This document shows, one piece after another, positions 545-7,983 of a DNA stretch of 9,978 nt. This DNA is from Acidobacteriota bacterium. GTDB lineage: Bacteria > Acidobacteriota > Blastocatellia > Pyrinomonadales > Pyrinomonadaceae. The DNA lies in assembly GCA_020853255.1 (NCBI GenBank), contig JADYZI010000252.1, positions 1-9,978 of the forward strand. The letters are read 5' to 3'. Position numbers and translations under genes: made by a program. Within the stretch, counting starts at the first letter, position 1. Every line of letters starts with the position of its first letter. The notes under the pieces were generated by a model, which made no database searches, had not been told where the DNA came from, and was given only the letters and a program-made list of their open reading frames with translations.

Positions 545-621
545 GCATTTGCGAAATTCGATTTGCGATTTGCGATTGAAAGAGATCGAAGATCGCAAAT
601 CGAAAATCGAAAGTCAAGAAT
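545..621. repeat. Inverted heptamer array between rplW and rplB
   Basis: The whole spacer can be read in seven-base units from 547: ATTTGCG, AAATTCG, ATTTGCG, ATTTGCG, ATTGAAA, GAGATCG, AAGATCG, CAAATCG, AAAATCG, AAAGTCA. The left arm (559-576) is complementary to the right arm (592-609) at 17 of 18 positions, with a 15-nt loop. The transcript could therefore form a long hairpin ending about 12 nt before the rplB start. No U-tract follows, so it is not a standard intrinsic terminator. No SD sequence is visible before rplB. Confidence 0.85.
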
Positions 622-1452
622 ATGGGAATCAAGAGATTAAAACCGACATCGCCGGCACGACGGTATCAGACGTATCTGACCCGCGACGAGCTGACGCCGG
701 GGGCAGAACCTGAACGGTCGCTGCTTGAACCAAAATTGCGGATCTCGGGGCGAAACAACGATGGCCGTATCACTATCCGTCGACGCGGCGGCGGCCACAA
801 GCGCTTTTACCGAGTGATCGACTTCAAGCGCGACAAGGCCGGCATTCCCGGACGCGTTTCGCAGATCGAGTACGACCCGAACCGCTCTGCGCACATTGCC
901 TTGATAACATATCTTGACGGCGAGAAGCGATATATTCTTGCTCCGCTCGGGCTTAAGGTCGGAACCTCGATCCTCAGCGGCGAAGAAGCTGATATTTTGC
1001 CGGGCAACGCTTTGCCGATCAAGAACATACCGCTTGGAACAGAGGTCCACAACATTGAACTTCGGCCGGGTAAAGGTGGGCAGATGGTGCGTTCGGCGGG
1101 CGGATTTGCACAGATAGTCGCAAAGGATGGCGATCATGCTCAGTTGCGTATGCCATCAGGTGAAGTTCGACGCGTTCCGGTGGTTTGCTATGCGACGGTT
1201 GGCCAGGTGGGCAACACGGAGCATGAGAATGTTTCGCTTGGCAAGGCCGGCCGCAGCCGGTGGATGGGCAAACGGCCGAAGGTTCGCGGCGTTGCGATGA
1301 ACCCGGTCGATCACCCGCACGGCGGTGGTGAAGGCAAGACGTCCGGCGGACGTAACCCGGTAACCCCGTGGGGCCAGCCGACACGCGGCTACAAGACACG
1401 TCGGAACAAGCGCACGACGAATATGATCGTGAAGGACCGCAGGAGAAAATAG
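622..1452 (+). CDS. rplB: 50S ribosomal protein L2
   Basis: L2 is an essential 50S protein that contacts 23S rRNA near the peptidyl transferase centre and helps form the intersubunit bridge B7b. The 276-residue product matches the family along its length (E. coli 273). Visible hallmarks are the N-terminal [12 protein letters not shown] stretch, the glycine/arginine block [12 protein letters not shown] (about 53-64), and the C-terminal signature [10 protein letters not shown], with His231 corresponding to the conserved catalytic-centre histidine near position 229 of E. coli. The C-terminal basic tail ([18 protein letters not shown]) is typical. The ATG at 622 gives the normal [14 protein letters not shown] start. 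The sequence just upstream (GTCAAGAAT) has no SD match, because the heptamer spacer occupies that position. Length and motifs leave little doubt. Confidence 0.98.
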
Positions 1453-1523
1453 GAGTGCGGAATGCGGAGTGCGGAATGCGGAGCCAAATCCAAAATCCAA
1501 GGTCCGAAATCCAAAATTGAAAG
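1453..1523. repeat. Two-part heptamer array between rplB and rpsS
   Basis: Nine consecutive seven-base units in one register run from 1456: TGCGGAA, TGCGGAG, TGCGGAA, TGCGGAG, CCAAATC, CAAAATC, CAAGGTC, CGAAATC, CAAAATT. They are followed by GAAAG and the rpsS ATG at 1524. Unlike the other spacers, the left half (TGCGGAR) is not the reverse complement of the right half (CAAAATC type), so no long hairpin forms. It looks like two half-arrays of different families joined together. There is no clear SD sequence before rpsS. Confidence 0.85.
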
Positions 1524-1814
1524 ATGCCACGTTCATTAAAAAAGGGACCGTTTATTGATCTGAGTGTGCAGAAAACTCTGCAGCGGATCCTGGATGGCGG
1601 GAAGAAGCCGCCAGCGATCAGGACTTGGTCGCGTCGTTCGACGATCTCGCCGGACATGGTCGGATTGACCTTTGGCGTTCATAATGGCAAACGCCATATA
1701 CCGGTTTTTGTGACCGAGAATATGGTCGGCCACAAACTTGGTGAGTTTTCGCCGACGCGAATGTTCAAGGGACATCCGGGAACGAAAGCGGAGAAAATGG
1801 CAAAACGAAAGTAA
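1524..1814 (+). CDS. rpsS: 30S ribosomal protein S19
   Basis: S19 sits in the head of the 30S subunit next to S13, binds 16S rRNA helices in the 3' domain and contributes to intersubunit bridge B1a. The 96-residue product (E. coli 92) carries the standard N terminus [12 protein letters not shown], the basic [14 protein letters not shown] segment (34-47), and the family signature [20 protein letters not shown] (52-71), followed by [13 protein letters not shown]. The ATG at 1524 gives the canonical first residues. No SD sequence precedes it; the upstream bases are the last heptamers of the rplB-rpsS spacer. The stop TAA is followed 5 nt later by the next repeat array. Identification is secure. 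Confidence 0.98.
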
Positions 1815-1899
1815 GACAGTTTGCGAATTTCGATTTACGATCTGCGATTAAGGAATCGCTGCGATCGCAAATCGCAAATTGCAAATCGCAAATACCAAA
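1815..1899. repeat. Inverted heptamer array between rpsS and rplV
   Basis: Eleven seven-base units run from 1820 to 1896. The left half is TTTGCGA, ATTTCGA, TTTACGA, TCTGCGA. The right half is CGATCGC, AAATCGC, AAATTGC, AAATCGC, AAATACC. The left arm (1820-1848) and the right arm (1864-1892) are complementary at about 24 of 29 positions, with a 15-nt loop, so a long imperfect hairpin is possible. The rplV ATG at 1900 follows the last unit by only 3 nt, leaving no room for an SD sequence. Confidence 0.85.
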
Positions 1900-2562
1900 A
1901 TGGAAGCGATAGCTAAAACACGAAATTTGAAGGGCAGTCCGCGTAAGGCGCGGCTTGTGATCGATCTGATCCGAGGACGAAATGTTTCGCAGGCTTTGTC
2001 GATACTGAAATTTACGGACAAGCGTGCGGCCGATCCGATCGCGAAAACGCTGCAGTCGGCGATCGCGAACGCGACGTACCAGGCCGAGCAGGAGAACATT
2101 GCGATCGACCCGGATGATCTGTGGGTGAAGACCTGCTTTGTTGACATGGGCCCGCATAAGAACCGGCGCCGAATGCGTCCCGCCCCGCAGGGCCGTGCGT
2201 ATCGCGAACAACGCCACTATTGCCACATAACCATCGAGGTTTCTAGCGACGAAAGGCCGAAGACCGAGAAAGAGTTGAAGGCCGAAGCCGCAAAGGCAAA
2301 GCGGTCGGCCGAAGGCGCTCCGAAAGAGAAGGCAGCAGCGAAGAAAGCCGAGGCCCCAAAGAAAGAGAAGAAGGCCGCAAAGCCGGCGGCGGAAGAGGTT
2401 GAGACTCCGGTACTAGAGGCTCCGGCCGAAACAGCGGCAAAGGGCGACGCGGAAGTGGCGGATGCCAAGAACGTCGAAACGCAGACGACCGAGGCTTTGA
2501 ACGAAACCAAGCCGGCGGATGAGGCTCAATTGGATAGGAATGAGGAGTTGGAGCGTCAGTAG
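1900..2562 (+). CDS. rplV: 50S ribosomal protein L22 with long C-terminal extension
   Basis: L22 contacts all six 23S rRNA domains, and its beta-hairpin lines the exit tunnel, where it affects macrolide binding and nascent-chain stalling. Residues 1-117 form the ordinary family: [20 protein letters not shown] at the N terminus, the central [12 protein letters not shown] helix, and the hairpin/C-terminal region [17 protein letters not shown] (98-114). Normal L22 has about 110 residues; here about 103 more follow. The first part is basic ([16 protein letters not shown]) and the second acidic (ends RNEELERQ). The tail's codon use resembles its neighbours, and the frame stays open to TAG 2560-2562, so it is not a frameshift artefact. 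I place the start at ATG 1900, which gives the family N terminus. A TTG at 1879 is in frame but lies inside the repeat array and is rejected. No SD sequence is visible. Confidence 0.96.
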
Positions 2563-2612
2563 TCCAGGTAGAGAGATCTCAGATTTGGGAATTTGAGATT
2601 TGAGAATAAGAT
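2563..2612. repeat. Short single-sided heptamer array between rplV and rpsC
   Basis: This 50-nt spacer holds a shorter and less regular version of the repeats: GATCTCA (2575), GATTTGG (2582), then ATTTGAG twice in tandem (2591-2604). No complementary half is present, so it looks like a half-array or a decayed copy. The rpsC ATG at 2613 follows GAGAATAAGAT, which is purine rich but not a convincing SD sequence. Confidence 0.65.
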
Positions 2613-3359
2613 ATGGGACAGAAAGTTCATCCATACGGTTTTAGGGTCGGTTATAACAAGGACTGGCACTCGCACTGGTACTCGAAAAATGATTTTGCCA
2701 AGTACTTGGCGGAAGACCTTGCTCTAAAGCGCGAGTTGAAGAAGAAATTTGCGGGCGGCGGCGTGTCACACATTGATATTGAACGTGCGGCCGCACGAAT
2801 GAAGATCATTATCTACACCGCGCGTCCGGGCATCATCATTGGCCGTAAGGGAGCCGAGATAGAAAAGCTCCGCGAGGACCTTTCGCGCAAGACGGGCCGC
2901 GAGGTGCTTATTTCGATCCAAGAGATTCGGCATCCGGAGCTGAATGCTCAGCTTCAGGCCGAGAAGATCGCCCAGCAGCTTGAAAAACGTATCGCGTTCC
3001 GCCGTGCGATGAAAAAAACGATGGAGGAATCGCAGCGATTCGGAGCCCAAGGGATCAAGGTAATGGTCTCAGGCCGTTTGAACGGGGCCGAAATCGCGCG
3101 AACCGAATGGTCGCTGCAGGGCCGCCTTCCGCTGCACACGCTGCGTGCCGATATCGATTACGGATTCGCGGAAGCGCTGACGACCTTCGGTATCATCGGA
3201 ATAAAGGTTTGGATCTATCGCGGTGAGATCCTTGACCCGAATGCGGCACTTGCCCGCGGCACGACCACGGATCCGGTGAACGAGGTCAAGGTTGAACGCG
3301 GAGCAGGCCGAGGAGACAGAAGGCCGAGAAGGGACGATCGCGGCGATCGAGGAAGATAA
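2613..3359 (+). CDS. rpsC: 30S ribosomal protein S3
   Basis: S3 lies at the mRNA entry channel of the 30S head and, with S4 and S5, gives the ribosome its mRNA helicase activity. The 248-residue product (E. coli 233) begins [13 protein letters not shown] as usual. It has a KH type 2 domain with the GxxG loop GRKG (77-80, in [17 protein letters not shown]) and the basic stretch AFRRAMKK (128-135), whose arginines and lysines correspond to the E. coli helicase residues around 131-135. The C-terminal domain signature [13 protein letters not shown] follows (154-166), then [11 protein letters not shown]. The last 20 residues or so are a lineage-specific Arg/Asp/Gly tail ([17 protein letters not shown]), probably disordered and RNA-contacting. 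The ATG at 2613 gives the canonical N terminus. Identification is secure. Confidence 0.98.
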
Positions 3360-3449
3360 GATCTGCTATTTGCGAATTTCGATTTTGGGGCCGCTGTTGG
3401 TTTTTATTCGAAGATCGCGATTTGAGATACGAAATTTGAGGGTTGAATT
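3360..3449. repeat. Degenerate heptamer array between rpsC and rplP
   Basis: The left part (3368-3387) reads TATTTGC, GAATTTC, GATTTTG in the style of the TTTGCGA family. A GC/T-rich centre follows, and then six units from 3406: ATTCGAA, GATCGCG, ATTTGAG, ATACGAA, ATTTGAG, GGTTGAA. The halves are only partly complementary (for example AATTTCG 3375-3381 with CGAAATT 3430-3436), so any hairpin is weaker than in neighbouring spacers. The final units contain GAGGG (3438-3442), which serves rplP as an SD sequence. Confidence 0.7.
3438..3442 (+). promoter_or_regulatory. Ribosome binding site of rplP inside a heptamer unit
   Basis: GAGGG lies 7 nt before ATG 3450. It arises across the last two heptamers (ATTTGAG and GGTTGAA), so here the repeat itself supplies the SD sequence, unlike most other repeat-spaced genes in the window. 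It supports ATG 3450 over the in-frame ATG at 3456. Confidence 0.65.
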
Positions 3450-3878
3450 ATGTTGATGCCGAAAAAGGTCAAGCACCGAAGAGTGATGAAGGGACGCATG
3501 CGCGGGAAAGCGACGCGCGGCGAAAACCTTGATTTCGGTGACTTCGGACTGAAAGCAATGGAGGCGGGCTGGATCACCGACCGCCAGATCGAGGCCGCAC
3601 GTATCGCGATGACGCGTCACGTCAAACGCGGTGGAAAGATCTGGATCAGGATGTTCCCCGACAAGCCGATCACCCGCAAGCCGGCCGAAACTCGTATGGG
3701 TTCTGGCAAAGGAGCTCCTGACCACTGGGTCGCGGTCGTCAAGCCGGGCCGAGTGCTTTATGAGATCCAGGGTGTTGATATGGAACTTGCCCGTGAGGCG
3801 TTTGCTTTGGCCGCACAGAAGCTGCCGATCAAGACAAAGTTCGTCTCGCGTGCGGACCTTGAAGGAGGCGTGGTTTAA
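3450..3878 (+). CDS. rplP: 50S ribosomal protein L16
   Basis: L16 is a late-assembling 50S protein near the A-site tRNA elbow and is needed for peptidyl transferase activity. The 142-residue product (E. coli 136) opens with the typical [19 protein letters not shown], has the [14 protein letters not shown] region (30-43), and the signature [20 protein letters not shown] (82-101). Arg82 aligns with the arginine that is hydroxylated in E. coli L16. The product ends [18 protein letters not shown], a few residues longer than usual. The start at 3450 is supported by GAGGG 7 nt upstream; ATG 3456 is a minor alternative. The last codons contain AAGGAGG (3862-3868), which serves rpmC 3 nt downstream, so the two genes are probably coupled. 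Confidence 0.98.
3862..3868 (+). promoter_or_regulatory. Ribosome binding site of rpmC within the rplP coding end
   Basis: AAGGAGG is the best anti-SD match in this part of the window. It lies inside the last codons of rplP, 13 nt before the rpmC ATG at 3882, a slightly long spacing. It supports that start and suggests coupling of L16 and L29 synthesis. Confidence 0.65.
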
Positions 3879-3881
3879 CAG

Positions 3882-4085
3882 ATGAAGGTCAAGGAACAGA
3901 AGGAACAACTCCGCGACATGAGCATTGATGAATTGAAGGAGCAGGCCGATGCGCTGAAAGAATCGTTGTTCAGGCTTAAGTTCCGCCGCTCACTCGGCGT
4001 AGGCAACGCGCTGGCCGATATCCGGCGTGAGAAAAAGACTTTGGCACGGGTTTATACGCTGTTAGGCCAGAAGGCAAAGGCGTAG
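3882..4085 (+). CDS. rpmC: 50S ribosomal protein L29
   Basis: L29 is a small two-helix protein beside L23 at the tunnel exit, contributing to the platform where trigger factor and SRP act. The 67-residue product (E. coli 63) reads MKVKEQKEQLRDMSIDELKE, then a helix containing LKESLFRLKFRRSLG, and ends with NALADIRREKKTLARVYTLL, the usual second helix with its conserved IRREKKTLAR core. It begins 3 nt after the rplP stop. The start is supported by AAGGAGG at 3862-3868. It is followed by a 74-nt spacer that holds two hairpins instead of heptamer arrays. Identification is secure. Confidence 0.97.
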   Translation: MKVKEQKEQLRDMSIDELKEQADALKESLFRLKFRRSLGVGNALADIRREKKTLARVYTLLGQKAKA

Positions 4086-4159
4086 AGCAGGCTATTTGCC
4101 TGTTCACATTGACGGGCAGAAAATGACGGGACCGTGAGACCTGTCATACGTGAAGAAAA
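4086..4159 (+). other. Spacer rpmC-rpsQ with two hairpins
   Basis: Two stem-loops can be drawn. AGCAGGC (4086-4092) pairs with GCCTGTT (4098-4104) over a 5-nt loop, with one G-U pair. ATGACGGG (4123-4130) pairs with CCTGTCAT (4140-4147) over a 9-nt loop, also with one G-U pair. TGACGGG occurs a second time at 4110-4116, exactly 14 nt earlier, giving an alternative 5' arm. No T-run follows either hairpin, so termination is unlikely. Upstream of rpsQ there is only a weak purine tract (GAAGAAAA). Confidence 0.6.
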
Positions 4160-4669
4160 ATGGCTAAGAAGAAAGAAGAAGGCGTAGAGGAAACGGTTGA
4201 AACGGCCGCCGCAGATGAGACCGCGGCCGAGAAAAAGCCGAAGCGGGCGACGAAAAAGGCGGACGCTGTTGACGGCGAGCCAACCGTGGCGGAGAGTGTG
4301 ATCGATACGGTCGCATCTGCGGCTGAGACTGTGGCGGATGCCGCCGTTGAAACAGTTGCCGCCGCGGCCGAGGCCGTCGCAAACGTTGTCAGCGGTCCTG
4401 GTAGCGAGAAAAATGCGATCGTTCATAAACGAGCGGAAAAGATCGGAGTGGTCGCTTCGGACAAGATGACGAAGACCGTAACCGTTCGTGTGGACCGATT
4501 GGTCAAGCATCCAACATATCGCAAATATGTTCGCCGCCGAAAGAAATTCATGGCGCATGACGAACTCGGTGCAAAGGTGGGCGATAAGGTGCGCATCATT
4601 GAAACGCGGCCGCTGTCGGCAAAAAAGCGTTGGCGCGTGGTAGAGATCCTGCACAAGGCGGAGTTGTAA
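4160..4669 (+). CDS. rpsQ: 30S ribosomal protein S17 with N-terminal extension
   Basis: S17 is a primary 16S rRNA-binding protein of the 30S body. The family domain lies at about 88-169: [20 protein letters not shown] (90-109), then [18 protein letters not shown] (113-130), [15 protein letters not shown], and the signature [18 protein letters not shown]. coli S17 has 84 residues in all; here about 85 precede the domain. The extension starts Lys/Glu/Ala rich (1-42), then becomes an apolar Ala/Val/Thr stretch (about 43-77, e.g. [20 protein letters not shown]) with TV pairs 7, 8 and 7 residues apart, as expected for an amphipathic helix. I keep ATG 4160 because no in-frame ATG lies between it and the Met at 103 inside the domain. 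A GTG start within the linker cannot be excluded, but the extension uses codons like its neighbours. Its function is unknown. Confidence 0.95.
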
Positions 4670-4749
4670 TTTGCGATTTGCAATTCGCGATTTGCGAGTG
4701 AATGAAGGTTGAGGATCGACATTCGCAGATCGAAAATACGAGGTAATTT
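4670..4749. repeat. Heptamer array between rpsQ and rplN
   Basis: The array begins immediately after the rpsQ stop codon: TTTGCGA (4670), TTTGCAA, TTCGCGA, TTTGCGA (to 4697). A central part is followed by AGGATCG, ACATTCG, CAGATCG, AAAATAC (4712-4739). The right half is a degenerate reverse complement of the left, with roughly 14 of 24 positions pairing. After the last unit comes GAGG (4740-4743), 6 nt before the rplN ATG, so this gene has both a repeat spacer and an SD sequence. Confidence 0.75.
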
Positions 4750-5118
4750 ATGATTCAGATGCAGACCTCTTTGGCGGTCGCGGATAATTCGGGGGCGAAA
4801 CGGGTTGAGATGATCGCTCCGATCGGCGGCTCGACGTCAAAGATCGCTCGGCTCGGCGACAAGATAAAGGTGACGGTGAAGGAAGCTGCGCCGGACGGCA
4901 CGGCGAAAAAGGGAAAGGTTTATAACGCCGTTATTGTGCGCACACGAAAGGAAGTTCGCCGGCGTGATGGCAGCTATATTCGCTTTGATGAGAATGCTGC
5001 AGTGCTTATCAAAGACGATGGAACGCCGGTCGGAACACGTGTCTTCGGGCCGGTTGCACGTGAGCTTCGTGAAAAGAATTTTATGAAGATCGTGAGCTTA
5101 GCTCCGGAAGTTATTTAG
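4750..5118 (+). CDS. rplN: 50S ribosomal protein L14
   Basis: L14 is the first protein of the spc operon. It binds 23S rRNA at the subunit interface, contacts L19 and forms bridge B8 with 16S rRNA. The 122-residue product is of normal length (E. coli 123) and almost canonical: [20 protein letters not shown] at the start, [12 protein letters not shown] (35-46), [20 protein letters not shown] (57-76), and the C-terminal [24 protein letters not shown]. The ATG at 4750 has GAGG 6 nt upstream. The 80-nt gap from rpsQ has no promoter I can support, so the spc genes are probably cotranscribed with the S10 genes. Identification is secure. Confidence 0.98.
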
Positions 5119-5225
5119 GCGTCGTTTCTTTTTCCTCTTCTTCATCTTTTTTCGGTGGTGCGGATTGTCTAACCGCCTAATATGAGGAATATCAGGAACA
5201 AGAGGAAAAGAAAAAGAATAAGAAG
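5119..5225 (+). other. Pyrimidine-then-purine spacer with inverted repeats before rplX
   Basis: The first part is a pyrimidine tract (about 5125-5153) and the last part a purine tract (about 5184-5225). TTTTCCTCTT (5130-5139) is perfectly complementary to AAGAGGAAAA (5200-5209). CTTCATCTT (5140-5148) is perfectly complementary to AAGATGAAG (5223-5231), which contains the rplX start codon. The two pairings interleave, so they could be alternatives. A small GCGG/CCGC stem (5160-5163 with 5173-5176) lies between them. No coding potential or promoter is evident. Confidence 0.55.
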
Positions 5226-5657
5226 ATGAAGACGGAAAAGAAAGGAACAGTCACAAGCAAGATAAAGCGCGGCGACCAGGTTGTATTTATCGCGGGCAAA
5301 GAATACGCACGGTATGACAGCCAGGGCAAGCGTCAGCCGTATCGCGGACGTGTAATTGCGGTGGATGCGCGGAACGGAAAGGTCAAGGTAGAAGGTGCGA
5401 ATATTCAAAAGCGGCATCGAAAACCCGTGCCGCAGTTGAACCGCGAAGGCGGCATCGTTCAGCAGGAAGGTTGGGTTGACGCGTCAAATGTCTCACTGAT
5501 CGACCCGGAAACAGGTAAACCGACGCGGGTGAAGATCGAACTCCGCGATGGAACAAAGGTACGTGTTGCAAAGAGCGGAAAGGTCATTCCGCTGCCGAAC
5601 GTTTTCGGTACAAAGGAGCCGAAGAAGATCGCGGCTGATAGGGAAGCGGAAGAGTAG
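5226..5657 (+). CDS. rplX: 50S ribosomal protein L24
   Basis: L24 starts 50S assembly by binding the 5' end of 23S rRNA and later sits near the tunnel exit. The KOW-type domain is visible: KIKRGDQVVFIAGKE (12-26), then YRGRVIAVDARNGKVKVEG (39-57) and ANIQKRHRKP (58-67), followed by GGIVQQEGWVDASNVSLIDP. At 143 residues it is clearly longer than the usual 100-105. The extra residues are an N-terminal lead of about 10 (MKTEKKGTVTS), an insertion of about 12 in the KOW loop (around 27-38, ARYDSQGKRQPY) and a C-terminal tail (PLPNVFGTKEPKKIAADREAEE). The start ATG 5226 has only a purine-rich upstream tract, with GAGG about 20 nt away. No better in-frame start was found, and the N-terminal length is less certain than the rest. 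Confidence 0.95.
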   Translation: MKTEKKGTVTSKIKRGDQVVFIAGKEYARYDSQGKRQPYRGRVIAVDARNGKVKVEGANIQKRHRKPVPQLNREGGIVQQEGWVDASNVSLIDPETGKPTRVKIELRDGTKVRVAKSGKVIPLPNVFGTKEPKKIAADREAEE

Positions 5658-5745
5658 CGGTTAAAAATTCGGCCTGGTAACGGCATCTAACTTGCTTCGG
5701 ACAATTTGAGATCCGAGAGACATGAAATCGAGCCGGGGCCCAGGC

Positions 5746-5750
5746 GAGGG
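5746..5750 (+). promoter_or_regulatory. Ribosome binding site deciding the rplE start
   Basis: GAGGG lies 7 nt before ATG 5758, ideal spacing, and favours that start over the in-frame ATG at 5722, which is preceded by GATCCGAGAGAC, a much weaker match. Confidence 0.7.
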
Positions 5751-5757
5751 AAGAGCA

Positions 5758-6297
5758 ATGGCAAGACTTAGAGAAAAGTATAAGAACGAGATCGCACCGG
5801 CATTGGCCAAAGAGTTCGACATTAAGAACCCGATGGCCATCCCGAAGATCGAGAAGATCGTAGTCAATATGGGACTTGGCGAGGCAAGTGCCAACGCCAA
5901 GATACTCGATGTGGCTTCGGACGAGCTCAAAGTGGTCACGGGACAGAAACCGGTCATCACTAAGGCCAAGAAATCGATCGCGGCATTCAAGCTGCGGCAG
6001 GGAATGAGTATCGGTACGATGGTCACGCTTCGCGGCGACAGGATGTACGAATTTCTCGACCGGCTGATCTCGATCGCTCTGCCGCGTGTTCGCGATTTTC
6101 GCGGTATTTCGCGGAAGGCGTTTGACGGCCGCGGAAATTATACGCTCGGCGTTCGCGAGCAGCTCATTTTTCCCGAGATCGATTTTAACAAGGTCGATAA
6201 GACGCGCGGAATGAATATCTCGATCGTAACGACAGCAAAAACGGATGAGCAGGCACGCTCACTGTTGAAATCGATGGGAATGCCTTTTAGGCAGTAG
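5758..6297 (+). CDS. rplE: 50S ribosomal protein L5
   Basis: L5 binds 5S rRNA together with L18 and anchors it to the central protuberance of the 50S subunit; it also contacts P-site tRNA and bridges to S13. With the start at ATG 5758 the product has 179 residues, exactly the usual bacterial length, and begins [20 protein letters not shown] as in the family. Hallmarks are [20 protein letters not shown] (24-43), [20 protein letters not shown] (61-80), and the C-terminal [20 protein letters not shown] (131-150) followed by [20 protein letters not shown]. The longer frame from 5722 would add 12 residues (beginning [12 protein letters not shown]) not expected in L5 and would overlap the SD of 5758. 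In E. coli this mRNA region is where S8 represses the spc operon; I cannot show an equivalent site here. Confidence 0.97.
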
Positions 6298-6398
6298 GGT
6301 TTATAACGCAGGGACGCAGAGTGTTTGAGAGTTTTCTCGCTGCCGACCAGTTCTAAACGAAACGAGCGTCTCAGTATCTTCGTGTTGAAGAAAAAGAT
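6298..6398 (+). other. Spacer rplE-rpsN with ACGCAG repeat remnant
   Basis: This 101-nt spacer lacks the heptamer arrays. It starts with two ACGCAG copies 8 nt apart (6306-6311 and 6314-6319). The stretch TAACGCAGGGACGC (6304-6317) closely resembles bases 9153-9167 before rplO, suggesting a shared dispersed element. No promoter, gene or stable long hairpin is evident. rpsN is preceded by a purine tract (GAAGAAAAAGAT) without a clear SD sequence. Confidence 0.45.
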
Positions 6399-6704
6399 AT
6401 GGCAAAGATCAGTAAGGTAGTAAAGAACAACGATCGGAAGCGGAAAGTGGAACTTTGGCGCGAGCGTCGATCTACGGCGAAAGCGATCATCAACAATCCG
6501 CGATCGACCCCGGAAGAGGTCGATGCGGCGGTGATAAAGCTTCAGAAGATGCCGCGAGATGGAAGCCCGATCCGGGTACGCAACCGCTGTTCGCAGTCGG
6601 GCCGTTCACGCGGATTTTTGAGGAAGTTCGGTATTTCCAGGATCGCCCTGCGTGAATTGTCGCTTGAGGGACAGATCCCGGGCGTTGTGAAATCGAGCTG
6701 GTGA
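6399..6704 (+). CDS. rpsN: 30S ribosomal protein S14, zinc-free long form
   Basis: S14 lies in the 30S head near the A-site and contacts S3, S10 and S19. The 101-residue product matches the long form found in E. coli (101). It has the N-terminal helix region with KRKVELWRERR (14-24), the linker NNPRSTPEEVDAAVIKLQKM, and the C-terminal core RVRNRCSQSGRSRGFLRKFG (59-78), followed by ISRIALRELSLEGQIPGVVKSSW. Only one cysteine (Cys64) remains, and the paired CxxC motifs of the short zinc-binding form are absent, so this is the C-minus type that does not depend on zinc. Its position between rplE and rpsH is canonical. The ATG at 6399 gives the expected MAKISKV start despite a weak ribosome binding site. 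Confidence 0.97.
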   Translation: MAKISKVVKNNDRKRKVELWRERRSTAKAIINNPRSTPEEVDAAVIKLQKMPRDGSPIRVRNRCSQSGRSRGFLRKFGISRIALRELSLEGQIPGVVKSSW

Positions 6705-6862
6705 GCCGATTTGGGATTTGAGATTGCTGGTCTTGGATTTTGAATCTGTAACACGCAGTCGTTGTAAGAGTTTGAAAATGCGGAACGGGAGTGGATGCAT
6801 CATTCGAGAATGCTAGATCCCCGAATCCACGATCCGCGATCAATTGACGGAGTTTAAGTAGA
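6705..6862 (+). repeat. Long spacer rpsN-rpsH with heptamer units and a branched hairpin
   Basis: This is the longest gap in the window (158 nt). It begins with in-register units GATTTGG (6708), GATTTGA, GATTGCT, GGTCTTG, GATTTTG (to 6742). The right part has ATCCCCG (6817), AATCCAC, GATCCGC, GATCAAT (to 6844). An imperfect structure pairs GCGGA (6780-6784) with TCCGC (6833-6837) and GTGGAT (6791-6796) with ATCCAC (6825-6830), enclosing a small CATT/AATG stem-loop (6801-6804 with 6809-6812). GGAG at 6849-6852 is the SD sequence of rpsH. I see no gene or supported promoter in it. Confidence 0.6.
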
Positions 6863-7255
6863 ATGACAGATCCAATAGCCGACATGCTAACGCGGATACG
6901 CAACGCGATCGCTGCAAATCACCCGCGGGTGGATATTCCTGGTTCGAAGCTGAAGGTAGAGGTTGCCCGCATCCTGAAGGAAGAGGGCTACATCAATAAC
7001 TACTCGACCAAGGGCGAAGGGCCGAAGTATGTGATCCGCGTTTTCCTTCGATATGATTCGCGCGGTACATCATCGATCACGCATCTTGCACGCGTTTCGC
7101 GTCCAGGCCGCCGCGTTTACGTCGGTGCCGGCGAGATCCCAAGGGTGCTGGGCGGGTACGGTGTTAATATCATCTCGACCTCGCGCGGCCTGATGAGCGG
7201 TAAGCGGGCCAAGGCCGAAAATGTCGGCGGCGAGATATTAGCGCAGGTCTATTAG
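6863..7255 (+). CDS. rpsH: 30S ribosomal protein S8
   Basis: S8 binds helix 21 of 16S rRNA and is central to 30S assembly; in E. coli it also represses the spc operon. The 130-residue product has the usual length. It starts MTDPIADMLTRIRNA, continues with the PRVDIPGSKLKVEVARILKE region (21-40) and EGYI, and ends with the signature GYGVNIISTSRGLMSGKRA (98-116) followed by AKAENVGGEILAQVY; the conserved STS motif that contacts RNA is at 105-107. The ATG at 6863 has GGAG 10 nt upstream. It is preceded by the longest spacer of the window and followed by a highly regular heptamer array. Whether S8 regulates this operon cannot be seen here. Confidence 0.98.
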   Translation: MTDPIADMLTRIRNAIAANHPRVDIPGSKLKVEVARILKEEGYINNYSTKGEGPKYVIRVFLRYDSRGTSSITHLARVSRPGRRVYVGAGEIPRVLGGYGVNIISTSRGLMSGKRAKAENVGGEILAQVY

Positions 7256-7347
7256 GTTGATTTTGGATTTTAGATTTTGGATTTTAGATTGCCTGGCGGC
7301 ATAAGTGAATCCAAAAGCGGCAATCCAAAATCCAAAATCGGAAAGTT
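7256..7347. repeat. Inverted heptamer array between rpsH and rplF
   Basis: This is the most regular array: twelve seven-base units in one register from 7259 to 7342. They are GATTTTG, GATTTTA, GATTTTG, GATTTTA, GATTGCC, TGGCGGC, ATAAGTG, AATCCAA, AAGCGGC, AATCCAA, AATCCAA, AATCGGA. The left arm (7273-7293) is complementary to the right arm (7319-7339) at 20 of 21 positions, with a 25-nt loop. It starts 4 nt after the rpsH stop and ends 5 nt before the rplF ATG. The only SD-like bases are GGAAAG (7340-7345), a weak match. Confidence 0.88.
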
Positions 7348-7908
7348 ATGTCACGAGTAGGAAAAAAACCGATCACGATTCCCGCCGGGGTAAGCGTTAA
7401 CATCAGCGATTCGCTGCTTGAGGTCAAAGGCCCGAAGGGCACCTTGAGTACTCCGGTCCCGGGCGGCGTCAAATTCAAGCAGGAAGACGGAACGTTGGTT
7501 GCTGAGCGGGCAAATGACGAACTGGCGGCGTTTCACGGCTTGGCCCGTGCATTGGCAAACAATGCGGTTGTTGGTGTTACGGAAGGCTTTAAGATCGAGC
7601 TTGATCTCGTTGGCGTAGGCTATAAGGCCGACGTTCAGGGCAAGAAGATCGTATTCGCTCTTGGGTATTCTCACCCGATCGAGTACCCGCTTCCTGACGG
7701 AATTGAAGCAAAGGCCGAACGCGTCGGAGCAAAAACGTCAATTTCGCAGTATCAATTGACGATAACGCTGTCCGGCATCGACAAACAGAAACTCGGCCAG
7801 GTGGCGGCGGAATTGAACCGCCTGCGTAAACCCGACGCATATAAAGGCAAGGGTGTCCGCTACGCGGCCAAGCAGTATAAACTAAAGCCGGGCAAGACGG
7901 GCAAGTAA
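7348..7908 (+). CDS. rplF: 50S ribosomal protein L6
   Basis: L6 lies at the base of the L7/L12 stalk beside the sarcin-ricin loop, where elongation factors bind. The 186-residue product (E. coli 177) begins [17 protein letters not shown] as in the family. It has two similar halves: the first with [11 protein letters not shown] (24-34), the second with the [20 protein letters not shown] region (76-95) and [15 protein letters not shown] (105-119). The C-terminal signature [12 protein letters not shown] (161-172) is complete, followed by a basic tail. The ATG at 7348 gives the canonical N terminus although its upstream sequence comes from the heptamer array and offers only a weak SD match. It is followed by another repeat spacer before rplR. 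Confidence 0.98.
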
Positions 7909-7983
7909 GCAGATTCTGGATCTTAGATTTTGGATTTTAGATTTCAAATCCAAGATCGGTGATCCTAAATCCGAAATTGAGAT
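7909..7983. repeat. Inverted heptamer array between rplF and rplR
   Basis: Ten units in register run from 7912 to 7981: GATTCTG, GATCTTA, GATTTTG, GATTTTA, GATTTCA, AATCCAA, GATCGGT, GATCCTA, AATCCGA, AATTGAG. Bases 7926-7937 pair with 7946-7957 as a 12-bp stem (one G-U pair) over an 8-nt loop, the most compact hairpin of the series. The array starts 4 nt after the rplF stop and ends 2 nt before the rplR ATG, which has no convincing SD sequence. Confidence 0.87.

Follow-up and report, generated by a model that had tools for sequence, protein, structure and literature searches.

Hairpins of seven-base repeats in the ribosomal-protein operon spacers of Acidobacteriota seem to keep period and symmetry while their sequence changes

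We have analysed a window of 9,978 nt of acidobacterial DNA carrying an S10/spc ribosomal-protein operon, in which the genes (named from their order and from a reading of the open reading frames) follow each other on the + strand as rplD(end)-L23-L2-S19-L22-S3-L16-L29-S17-L14-L24-L5-S14-S8-L6-L18-S5-L30-L15-secY(start). Of the 80 listed matches of the L6 protein encoded here, the best 17 share 80-88% identity with it; 16 come from assemblies whose titles name Acidobacteria, Acidobacteriota, Blastocatellia or Pyrinomonadaceae, and the other from one called only bacterium. We have taken the window as Pyrinomonadaceae-like. Our subject is the spacers between the genes. A sequence-only reading had described eight of them as built wall to wall from seven-base units (heptads), with a recurrent plan of left half, unique centre and reverse-complement right half, and had proposed that the period and the folding rather than a fixed sequence are maintained or generated, either as RNA hairpins between genes or by a repeat-expanding mechanism. 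All genome-wide statements below rest on the genomes of relatives, not on the window's own genome, and these are metagenome assemblies of unstated completeness.

The seven-base period was found in all eight spacers, with match fractions at lag 7 of 0.47-0.67 and z values (500 dinucleotide shuffles for each spacer) from 2.6 to 6.8. At lag 14 the fraction was 0.43-0.59 in seven of them (0.33 in 2563-2612) and at all other lags from 3 to 13 it did not exceed 0.42. The heptamer types were also as described. The expression "wall to wall" is appropriate for six of the eight, where lag-7 segments cover 60-94% of the spacer, and fails for 3360-3449 (29%) and 4670-4749 (35%). As for the two-arm plan, with arm scores compared to the best of 20 shuffles, four spacers had strongly complementary arms, two were borderline, and the remaining two did not reach significance.

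The four strong hairpins all exceed the best of their shuffles and, like every feature given here, are read on the + strand. The L23-L2 spacer (545-621; lag-7 z 5.8) holds a hairpin of the TTTGCGA/TCGCAAA type with arms 557-576 and 592-611, in which 19 of 20 positions pair (score 35, shuffled maximum 21) and the minimum free energy (MFE) z is -4.95. The S19-L22 spacer (1815-1899; z 6.4, MFE z -3.9) has one of the TTTGCGA type, with 24 of 29 positions paired between 1820-1848 and 1864-1892 (score 33, shuffled 20); an in-frame TTG at 1879, within this array, could lengthen the L22 frame upstream of the ATG at 1900. In the S8-L6 spacer (7256-7347; z 6.0, MFE z -4.1) the type is GATTTTR/AATCCAA and 20 of 21 positions pair between 7273-7293 and 7319-7339 (score 37, shuffled 17), and in the L6-L18 spacer (7909-7983; z 5.8, MFE z -4.0) it is GATTTTR/GATCCTA, with 20 of 26 positions paired between 7912-7937 and 7946-7971 (score 22, shuffled 17). 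The two borderline cases are the short ATTTGAG/GATTTGG array of the L22-S3 spacer (2563-2612; z 2.6; 2576-2585 with 2590-2599, score 15, shuffled maximum 14) and the S17-L14 spacer (4670-4749; z 4.7), which has a TTTGCGA array at 4670-4697 and arms at 4670-4687 and 4717-4736 whose score of 16 equals the shuffled maximum. The L2-S19 spacer (1453-1523), with the highest z (6.8) and 94% coverage, is a chimera of a TGCGGAR array (1453-1482) followed by an AATCCAA array (1486-1522), which are not complementary to each other (score 10, shuffled maximum 13). The S3-L16 spacer (3360-3449; z 3.9) is degraded heptad sequence with a single lag-7 segment at 3361-3386 and arms that are not significant (score 14, shuffled maximum 19). 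The partial heptads proposed for the S14-S8 spacer (6705-6862) are present, although weaker (z 3.1, 22% covered), being limited to 6708-6725 and 6825-6841 with arms not above shuffles. Six further spacers of the window (starting at 4086, 5119, 5658, 6298, 9148 and 9663) had no lag-7 segment.

To extend this beyond the window, orthologous ribosomal genes, with their start codons, were placed by tblastn in 80 loci (L001-L080). The main set consists of 273 spacers of 45-220 nt from 34 loci, i.e., the window and the 33 closest (L001-L033), and we call array a lag-7 segment scoring at least 10. Arrays were present in 157 of the 273 spacers, against 0.65 expected from shuffles and 0-5 at nine control lags; the spacers of the relatives are not random sequence. 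Pooled autocorrelation gave z values of 58, 57 and 39 at lags 7, 14 and 21, the next highest among lags 2-35 being those of lags 8 (6.9), 28 (6.8) and 6 (5.7), while several lags fell below shuffles. The arrays begin at a median of 3 nt past the stop codon and end at a median of 10 nt ahead of the next start. Their frequency differs between spacers (13 compared, chi-square p 9e-6), from 21/23 in L23-L2 and 18/21 in L2-S19 to 1/9 in L29-S17 and 0/7 in L14-L24. Among the 47 more distant loci (L034-L080), 31 of 109 spacers carry arrays, spread over 11 loci that include some titled Nitrospirae or Nitrospirota (L045, L048, L052, L056, L069) and others titled Acidobacteria (L038, L041, L055). We also observed that three spacers of locus L001 (L22-S3, S8-L6 and L6-L18) hold GC-rich palindromes of a non-heptad kind, two of them of the GCGGACGC/GCGTCCGC type, as if ribosomal sites accepted several hairpin families.

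The phenomenon is not restricted to ribosomal operons. The lag-7 excess expected genome-wide was seen in 400-kb samples of two relatives (genes called by our own script, not a standard caller), clear in G003 and weaker in G002; in the two samples, arrays scoring at least 14 numbered 20 and 9 in intergenic DNA versus 1 and 2 in coding DNA. In six genomes (G002, G003, G008, G010, G011 and G019), co-directional spacers of 45-220 nt carried arrays in 35 of 58 cases inside the ribosomal operon and in 89 of 481 outside it (odds ratio 6.7, p 7e-11).

What is repeated inside the arrays varies. The 157 array spacers comprise 221 segments and 102 distinct heptamer necklaces. Among 1127 pairs of orthologous spacers 10.9% share a heptamer (up to one mismatch), compared with 8.3% of the 10717 pairs that are neither orthologous nor from the same genome and 18.4% of the 402 pairs formed by different spacers of a single genome. 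Each arm, however, matches its own partner (mean score 26.7) much better than arms from other spacers at the same locus (15.4) or from other loci (11.9), and the score with the own arm was above the 95th percentile of arms from other loci in 102 of the 157. Of 64 spacers with at least two segments, 61 had them inverted and 2 direct. If we define a family by its heptamer consensus, with rotations and reverse complements counted as equal, orthologous pairs at >=89% identity had arrays in both in 15 cases (8 of one family), in one only in 3 and in neither in 6; at 84-89% these numbers were 30 (none of one family), 20 and 19, and at 79-84% they were 133 (17 of one family), 124 and 81. The 0/30 at 84-89% has to be read against a same-family background of 10-13% at low identity. 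In other words, sharing of the heptamer family drops fast to background (about 10%), and occupancy of the site, without being fixed, is shared more than the family.

This turnover can also be followed in two sister genomes, G019 and G011, whose ribosomal loci (L027 and L028) are 93% identical over 11 ribosomal genes. We traced 19 arrays of G019, from L027 and three further regions, into G011 by their flanks, and of the 17 that could be mapped (two were unmappable) 16 had arrays in both genomes, the family being the same at 3 and different at 13, with a single site lacking a G011 array above threshold. The flanks are conserved as far as the Shine-Dalgarno site. At one of the 13 swapped sites the left arm of the old hairpin survives in G011, as judged by eye, as a stub next to the new one; at one of the unmapped sites (L222) the same AAGTGAC type is apparent by eye in both genomes. 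The period and the dyad symmetry, and not a fixed sequence, seem to be what persists at these spacers, as the sequence-only reading had supposed, given that orthologues hardly share heptamers above the non-orthologous level and that array presence depends on the spacer.

Individual heptamers have been amplified in a lineage-specific way. The pattern AAGTGACAAGTGAC has 876 matches in G019 (with up to one mismatch on both strands, counting forward plus reverse matches and not elements, as for all such counts), 14 in the sister G011 and 0-20 in ten other genomes, when reversed-pattern controls gave 0-4. Conversely, GATGAACGATGAAC has 310 matches in G011, 84 in G012, 23 in G019 and 1-22 in nine others (controls 0-2). 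The heptamers of the window itself are modestly amplified in G018, its second-closest relative by L6 identity, in which GATTTTGGATTTTG has 50 matches (control 4) and GATTTGCGATTTGC has 16 (control 1); the former has 23 in G013 (control 0) and 1-9 in ten others, and the latter 0-8 in eleven others. Same-family hairpins nearly always have the same hand within a genome (589 of 594 comparable pairs, i.e., 589 versus 5), and less so between genomes (695 of 982). As elements of one family are not independent, we used family-level counts where that matters. By these, the G-rich arm is the 5' one in 24 of 31 greedily defined families (p 0.003), with no such bias for A/T (14:17), and it comes first in 28 of the 32 genomes or loci that have a majority (34 in total, with 2 ties), with exceptions like L055 (2:8). 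The hand of a hairpin is intrinsic and independent of gene direction, because a hairpin is its own reverse complement.

Among 568 clusters of segments, adjacent pairs were inverted and of the same family in 152 cases, of different families in 37 and direct in 3, and only four clusters had three or more segments. In G019 we read by eye two GTGAATC/GTCAATC hairpins nested in the loops of AAGTGAC hairpins, one at C79:9000-9140 (L243) and the other at C14 near 52315 (L239). Target-site duplications were not obvious by eye (no statistical test was made). The two arms also tend to carry matching variants. Within one family of G019 (24 elements) the two variable bases of the unit agree with those of the mirror unit in 57-58% of units, versus 37-39% when the arms are swapped between elements and a maximum of 53% in 200 shuffles. 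Besides, between L009 and L010 (95% identical) the 25-nt centre of the L30-L15 spacer is identical, and both arms differ in length by 49 nt, exactly seven units. Template switching between inverted repeats is reported as a source of new hairpin stems and as a way of repairing them (PMC8794818). Amplification, swapped families, mirrored variants, coupled arm change and nesting all support the generating, repeat-expanding side of the original proposal.

We then come to whether the hairpins are maintained as DNA or as RNA. On the coding strand of ribosomal spacers the mispairs of stems above threshold (116 of 157 hairpins) were 69 G.U and 91 A.C, laxer scoring gave 150:179 and 172:207, and in co-directional spacers elsewhere the ratio was 99:91. 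For comparison, the stems of 60 tRNAs from the sequences used gave 84:0, which serves as a check of direction only, given the bias of the finder towards paired stems. G.U pairs should be spared where an RNA stem is under selection, whereas a process acting on DNA would treat both mispairs alike, and the lack of any G.U excess over A.C makes maintenance look DNA-level; the test addresses maintenance, and hairpins may still be favoured on arrival. Two-armed arrays were found in tandem (100/176), convergent (18/31) and divergent (9/26) orientations, without a significant difference between tandem and the rest (p 0.22). In spacers up to 300 nt, arrays are equally frequent between convergent (17/97) and co-directional genes (105/584), and 2.7 times rarer between divergent ones (9/135 vs 122/681 in the others, p 0.0007, with our own gene caller), as for elements harmful to promoters. 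An early impression that two-armed arrays were confined to co-directional spacers, based on 0/13 divergent segments and on the tandem location of 8/8 two-armed AAGTGAC elements of G019, was undone by the larger sample and a better arm search. Similarly, the apparently stronger folding of the sense strand (p 0.005) turned out to be a matter of composition, as shuffles differ at least as much. The suggestion that RNA hairpins are the thing maintained is not supported, considering the mispair ratios and the two-armed arrays between convergent and divergent genes.

With somewhat better than even confidence, we believe that these spacers are sites occupied by dispersed, DNA-templated heptad hairpins that replace one another at preferred locations. 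Hairpin copies would spread to other intergenic sites, favouring those with heptad hairpins already there and avoiding promoters, and an incoming hairpin may nest within the old one and later replace it. Arms would be kept complementary by template switching during replication of the folded single strand (quasipalindrome correction), and the number of units might change by slippage in steps of seven. The preference for ribosomal spacers could mean that insertions are tolerated in the stretch from stop codon to Shine-Dalgarno site, or else that a hairpin is useful there whatever its sequence.

Several observations weigh against this interpretation. G001, the closest to the window by L6, has just 6 and 8 matches of the window heptamers. 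The centres of same-family hairpins are only partly alike (14% and 16% of pairs score at least 20, versus 3% and 0% when shuffled). The evidence for nesting consists of two elements and one stub, all seen by eye, and an automatic search of the 568 clusters scored none as fully nested and one as a stub plus hairpin; 372 of these clusters have a single segment, so that the two-arm form is not universal. Site occupancy is just partly conserved beyond the close pairs (133/124/81 at 79-84%), and the enrichment in the ribosomal operon (35/58 vs 89/481) could reflect selection for hairpins and not tolerance. The lengths of the two arms are weakly correlated over 163 elements (Spearman 0.18, p 0.02), which makes the coupled change of L009/L010 one striking case and not a rule. 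Finally, no copying enzyme was found, the sole family tested being the Y1 transposases, without a match in G019.

Among the other explanations, selection of RNA hairpins between cistrons, for translation insulation or for mRNA processing or stability, would make any heptad hairpin sufficient and the turnover compensatory. It would fit with the enrichment in ribosomal operons, with a sister pair that keeps sites and flanks while the sequence is swapped, and with predicted folding that is strong in array spacers (mean MFE z -4.0) and is seen in non-array ribosomal spacers as well (-2.1), so that other kinds of hairpin occupy these sites too. We consider it unlikely in view of the mispairs, which show no wobble excess of the kind seen in the tRNA stems (themselves biased to pairs), of a sense-antisense folding difference no larger than in shuffles, of arrays as frequent between convergent as between co-directional genes with two-armed ones also between divergent genes, and of the exact seven-base unit, which RNA selection leaves unexplained. 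A similarly low probability applies to ectopic gene conversion, in which genomic or imported arrays overwrite the residents through recombination at short similar repeats, so that concerted evolution would need no mobile element of its own. This would account for heptamers being shared more within a genome (18.4%) than between genomes (8.3%) and for the swapped families amid conserved sites and flanks of the sister pair, but the families swapped have little common sequence for recombination and the nested hairpins resemble insertion rather than conversion.

A purely local process has also to be considered, in which slippage with a seven-base step favoured by the polymerase, plus local palindrome correction, generates every array in situ without copying between sites. 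The seven-base step is a hypothesis that PMC4679880 and PMC4692102 ascribe to Mrazek et al. 2007. According to these papers no long repeat unit is more abundant than the heptamer in most of the bacterial genomes examined, and that abundance, the lag-7 excess in the two genome samples and the size change in multiples of seven (L009/L010) all go in its favour. Still, local slippage would hardly bring one heptamer to hundreds of matches in only one species of a sister pair, or give a single hand within genomes (589 vs 5 pairs), partly shared centres or nested elements, and we give it little credence. Least probable of all, and very much so, are REP/REPIN elements moved by a RAYT (Y1) transposase. 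The hairpins are indeed dispersed, palindromic, intergenic and under-represented in divergent spacers, and Y1 matches were found in 10 of 12 genomes searched. However, there were none in G019, which has the largest amplification, or in G021, both matches in G011 contain stop codons, no fixed terminal tag was seen and the sequence varies between families. We have thus rejected RAYT (PF01797) as the engine for G019, and it is not the general one if the assemblies are reasonably complete. As a separate observation, in G003 (C5:188584-192096, L090) a Y1 match (C5:189906-190250) is flanked on both sides by long single-arm heptad arrays.

Our preferred reading of dispersed hairpins that replace one another can be taken further, to a class of replicating DNA hairpins defined by rhythm and symmetry alone, although we advance this only tentatively and consider it more doubtful than credible. 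Almost any heptamer could found a family, which would spread to hundreds of sites, nest in and displace residents, and have each of its arms rewritten from the other as DNA, seven bases at a step, the G-rich arm mostly coming first. It would be present in at least two phyla here (and in others according to the literature) and driven by a putative copying activity with a seven-base step. To our knowledge, no mechanism has gained acceptance for the heptamer repeats of bacteria, although they were noted decades ago. Pairs of species with retained sites and changed words make the generating process visible apart from sequence conservation; they help to separate DNA-level rewriting from RNA selection, reveal a fast turnover and pinpoint sister genomes as the places to look for the copying activity. 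If it is true that hairpins free in sequence spread and replace each other, searches for mobile repeats based on similarity would miss them.

The rest of the window contains other features. The L14-L24 spacer (5119-5225) has a non-heptad inverted repeat, pyrimidine-rich and then purine-rich, with arms at 5125-5143 and 5196-5213 (17 of 19 positions paired, score 26, shuffled maximum 20), and the purine-rich half looks similar in L001. Intrinsic terminators (a G+C-rich stem plus a T run) were considered and discarded for the heptad spacers, which contain none of the four terminator-like sites of the + strand; 17 such sites were found on both strands of the window, with 13.3 expected. Rfam models gave no match at the gathering threshold in the window. 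Long low-complexity tails rich in Lys, Ala and Glu are found at the C-termini of L4 (1-205) and L22 (2260-2562), and S17 (169 aa) has an N-terminal extension of the same composition (4160-4430).

The comparison with known systems places these arrays in a familiar setting. Cyanobacterial short tandem repeats (STRR) are tandem, degenerate heptanucleotide repeats of intergenic regions, and our arrays, made of tandem degenerate 7-nt units in intergenic DNA, are STRR-like, although the STRR belong to another phylum. Dispersed intergenic heptamers that vary in length and sequence among close relatives are also known as the GGGAATC repeats of Xanthomonas and the GGGGA(C/T)T repeats of Nostoc (PMC4692102), a work that also mentions three tandem heptanucleotides of Calothrix. 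Two Xanthomonas genomes have 186 and 183 dispersed intergenic arrays, with 70 and 75 cases of two close convergent arrays, and 8% and 7% between divergent genes (PMC4692102). As we read them, these convergent pairs are inverted two-arm elements with the G-rich arm first, the same hand found here in 24/31 families. The Xanthomonas and Nostoc repeats are, however, one G-rich family discussed in terms of G-quadruplexes (PMC4692102), whereas we have 102 necklaces, and only 5 of the 221 segments contain GGG or CCC when the heptamer is read as a circle, which speaks against quadruplexes in our arrays. The TAACTGA repeats of marine Beggiatoaceae are likewise intergenic heptamers near start codons, some of them within ribosomal-protein operons, in a work that also cites 7-nt indels between close Cyanothece strains (PMC4679880). 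They differ in being a single heptamer with 169 direct-repeat sets and a single indirect one in the main genome, and in the available text of PMC4679880 we did not find the two-arm plan described. With REP/REPIN our hairpins have in common that they are small dispersed palindromes outside genes, in many copies and lineage-specific families (PMC3733652), and rare in divergent (promoter) spacers (9/135 vs 122/681), whereas REP/REPIN have non-periodic arms, a fixed tag and, for the GTAG type, a dedicated transposase (PMC3733652).

Dispersed intergenic heptamers and inverted heptamer pairs are, then, of an already known kind. In the open-licence literature, as far as its available text goes, we did not find described the replacement of families at conserved intergenic sites, the mirrored variants, the nesting, the symmetric change in units or a wobble test against RNA maintenance, and for Xanthomonas and Nostoc we found no description of family replacement at orthologous sites, mirrored variants or nesting in the corresponding parts of PMC4692102. 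A parallel is the P6b stem of the Nostoc tRNA-Leu(UAA) intron, also a hairpin made from seven-base repeats, in which Class I (TDNGATT) and Class II (NNTGAGT) have very different repeats and similar structure, and lineages have shifted between classes (PMC4476775). The P6b stem differs in being one site within a self-splicing RNA, with a structure thought to be important at the RNA level (PMC4476775), and for the exchange of one heptamer family for another it offers a precedent limited to a single site.

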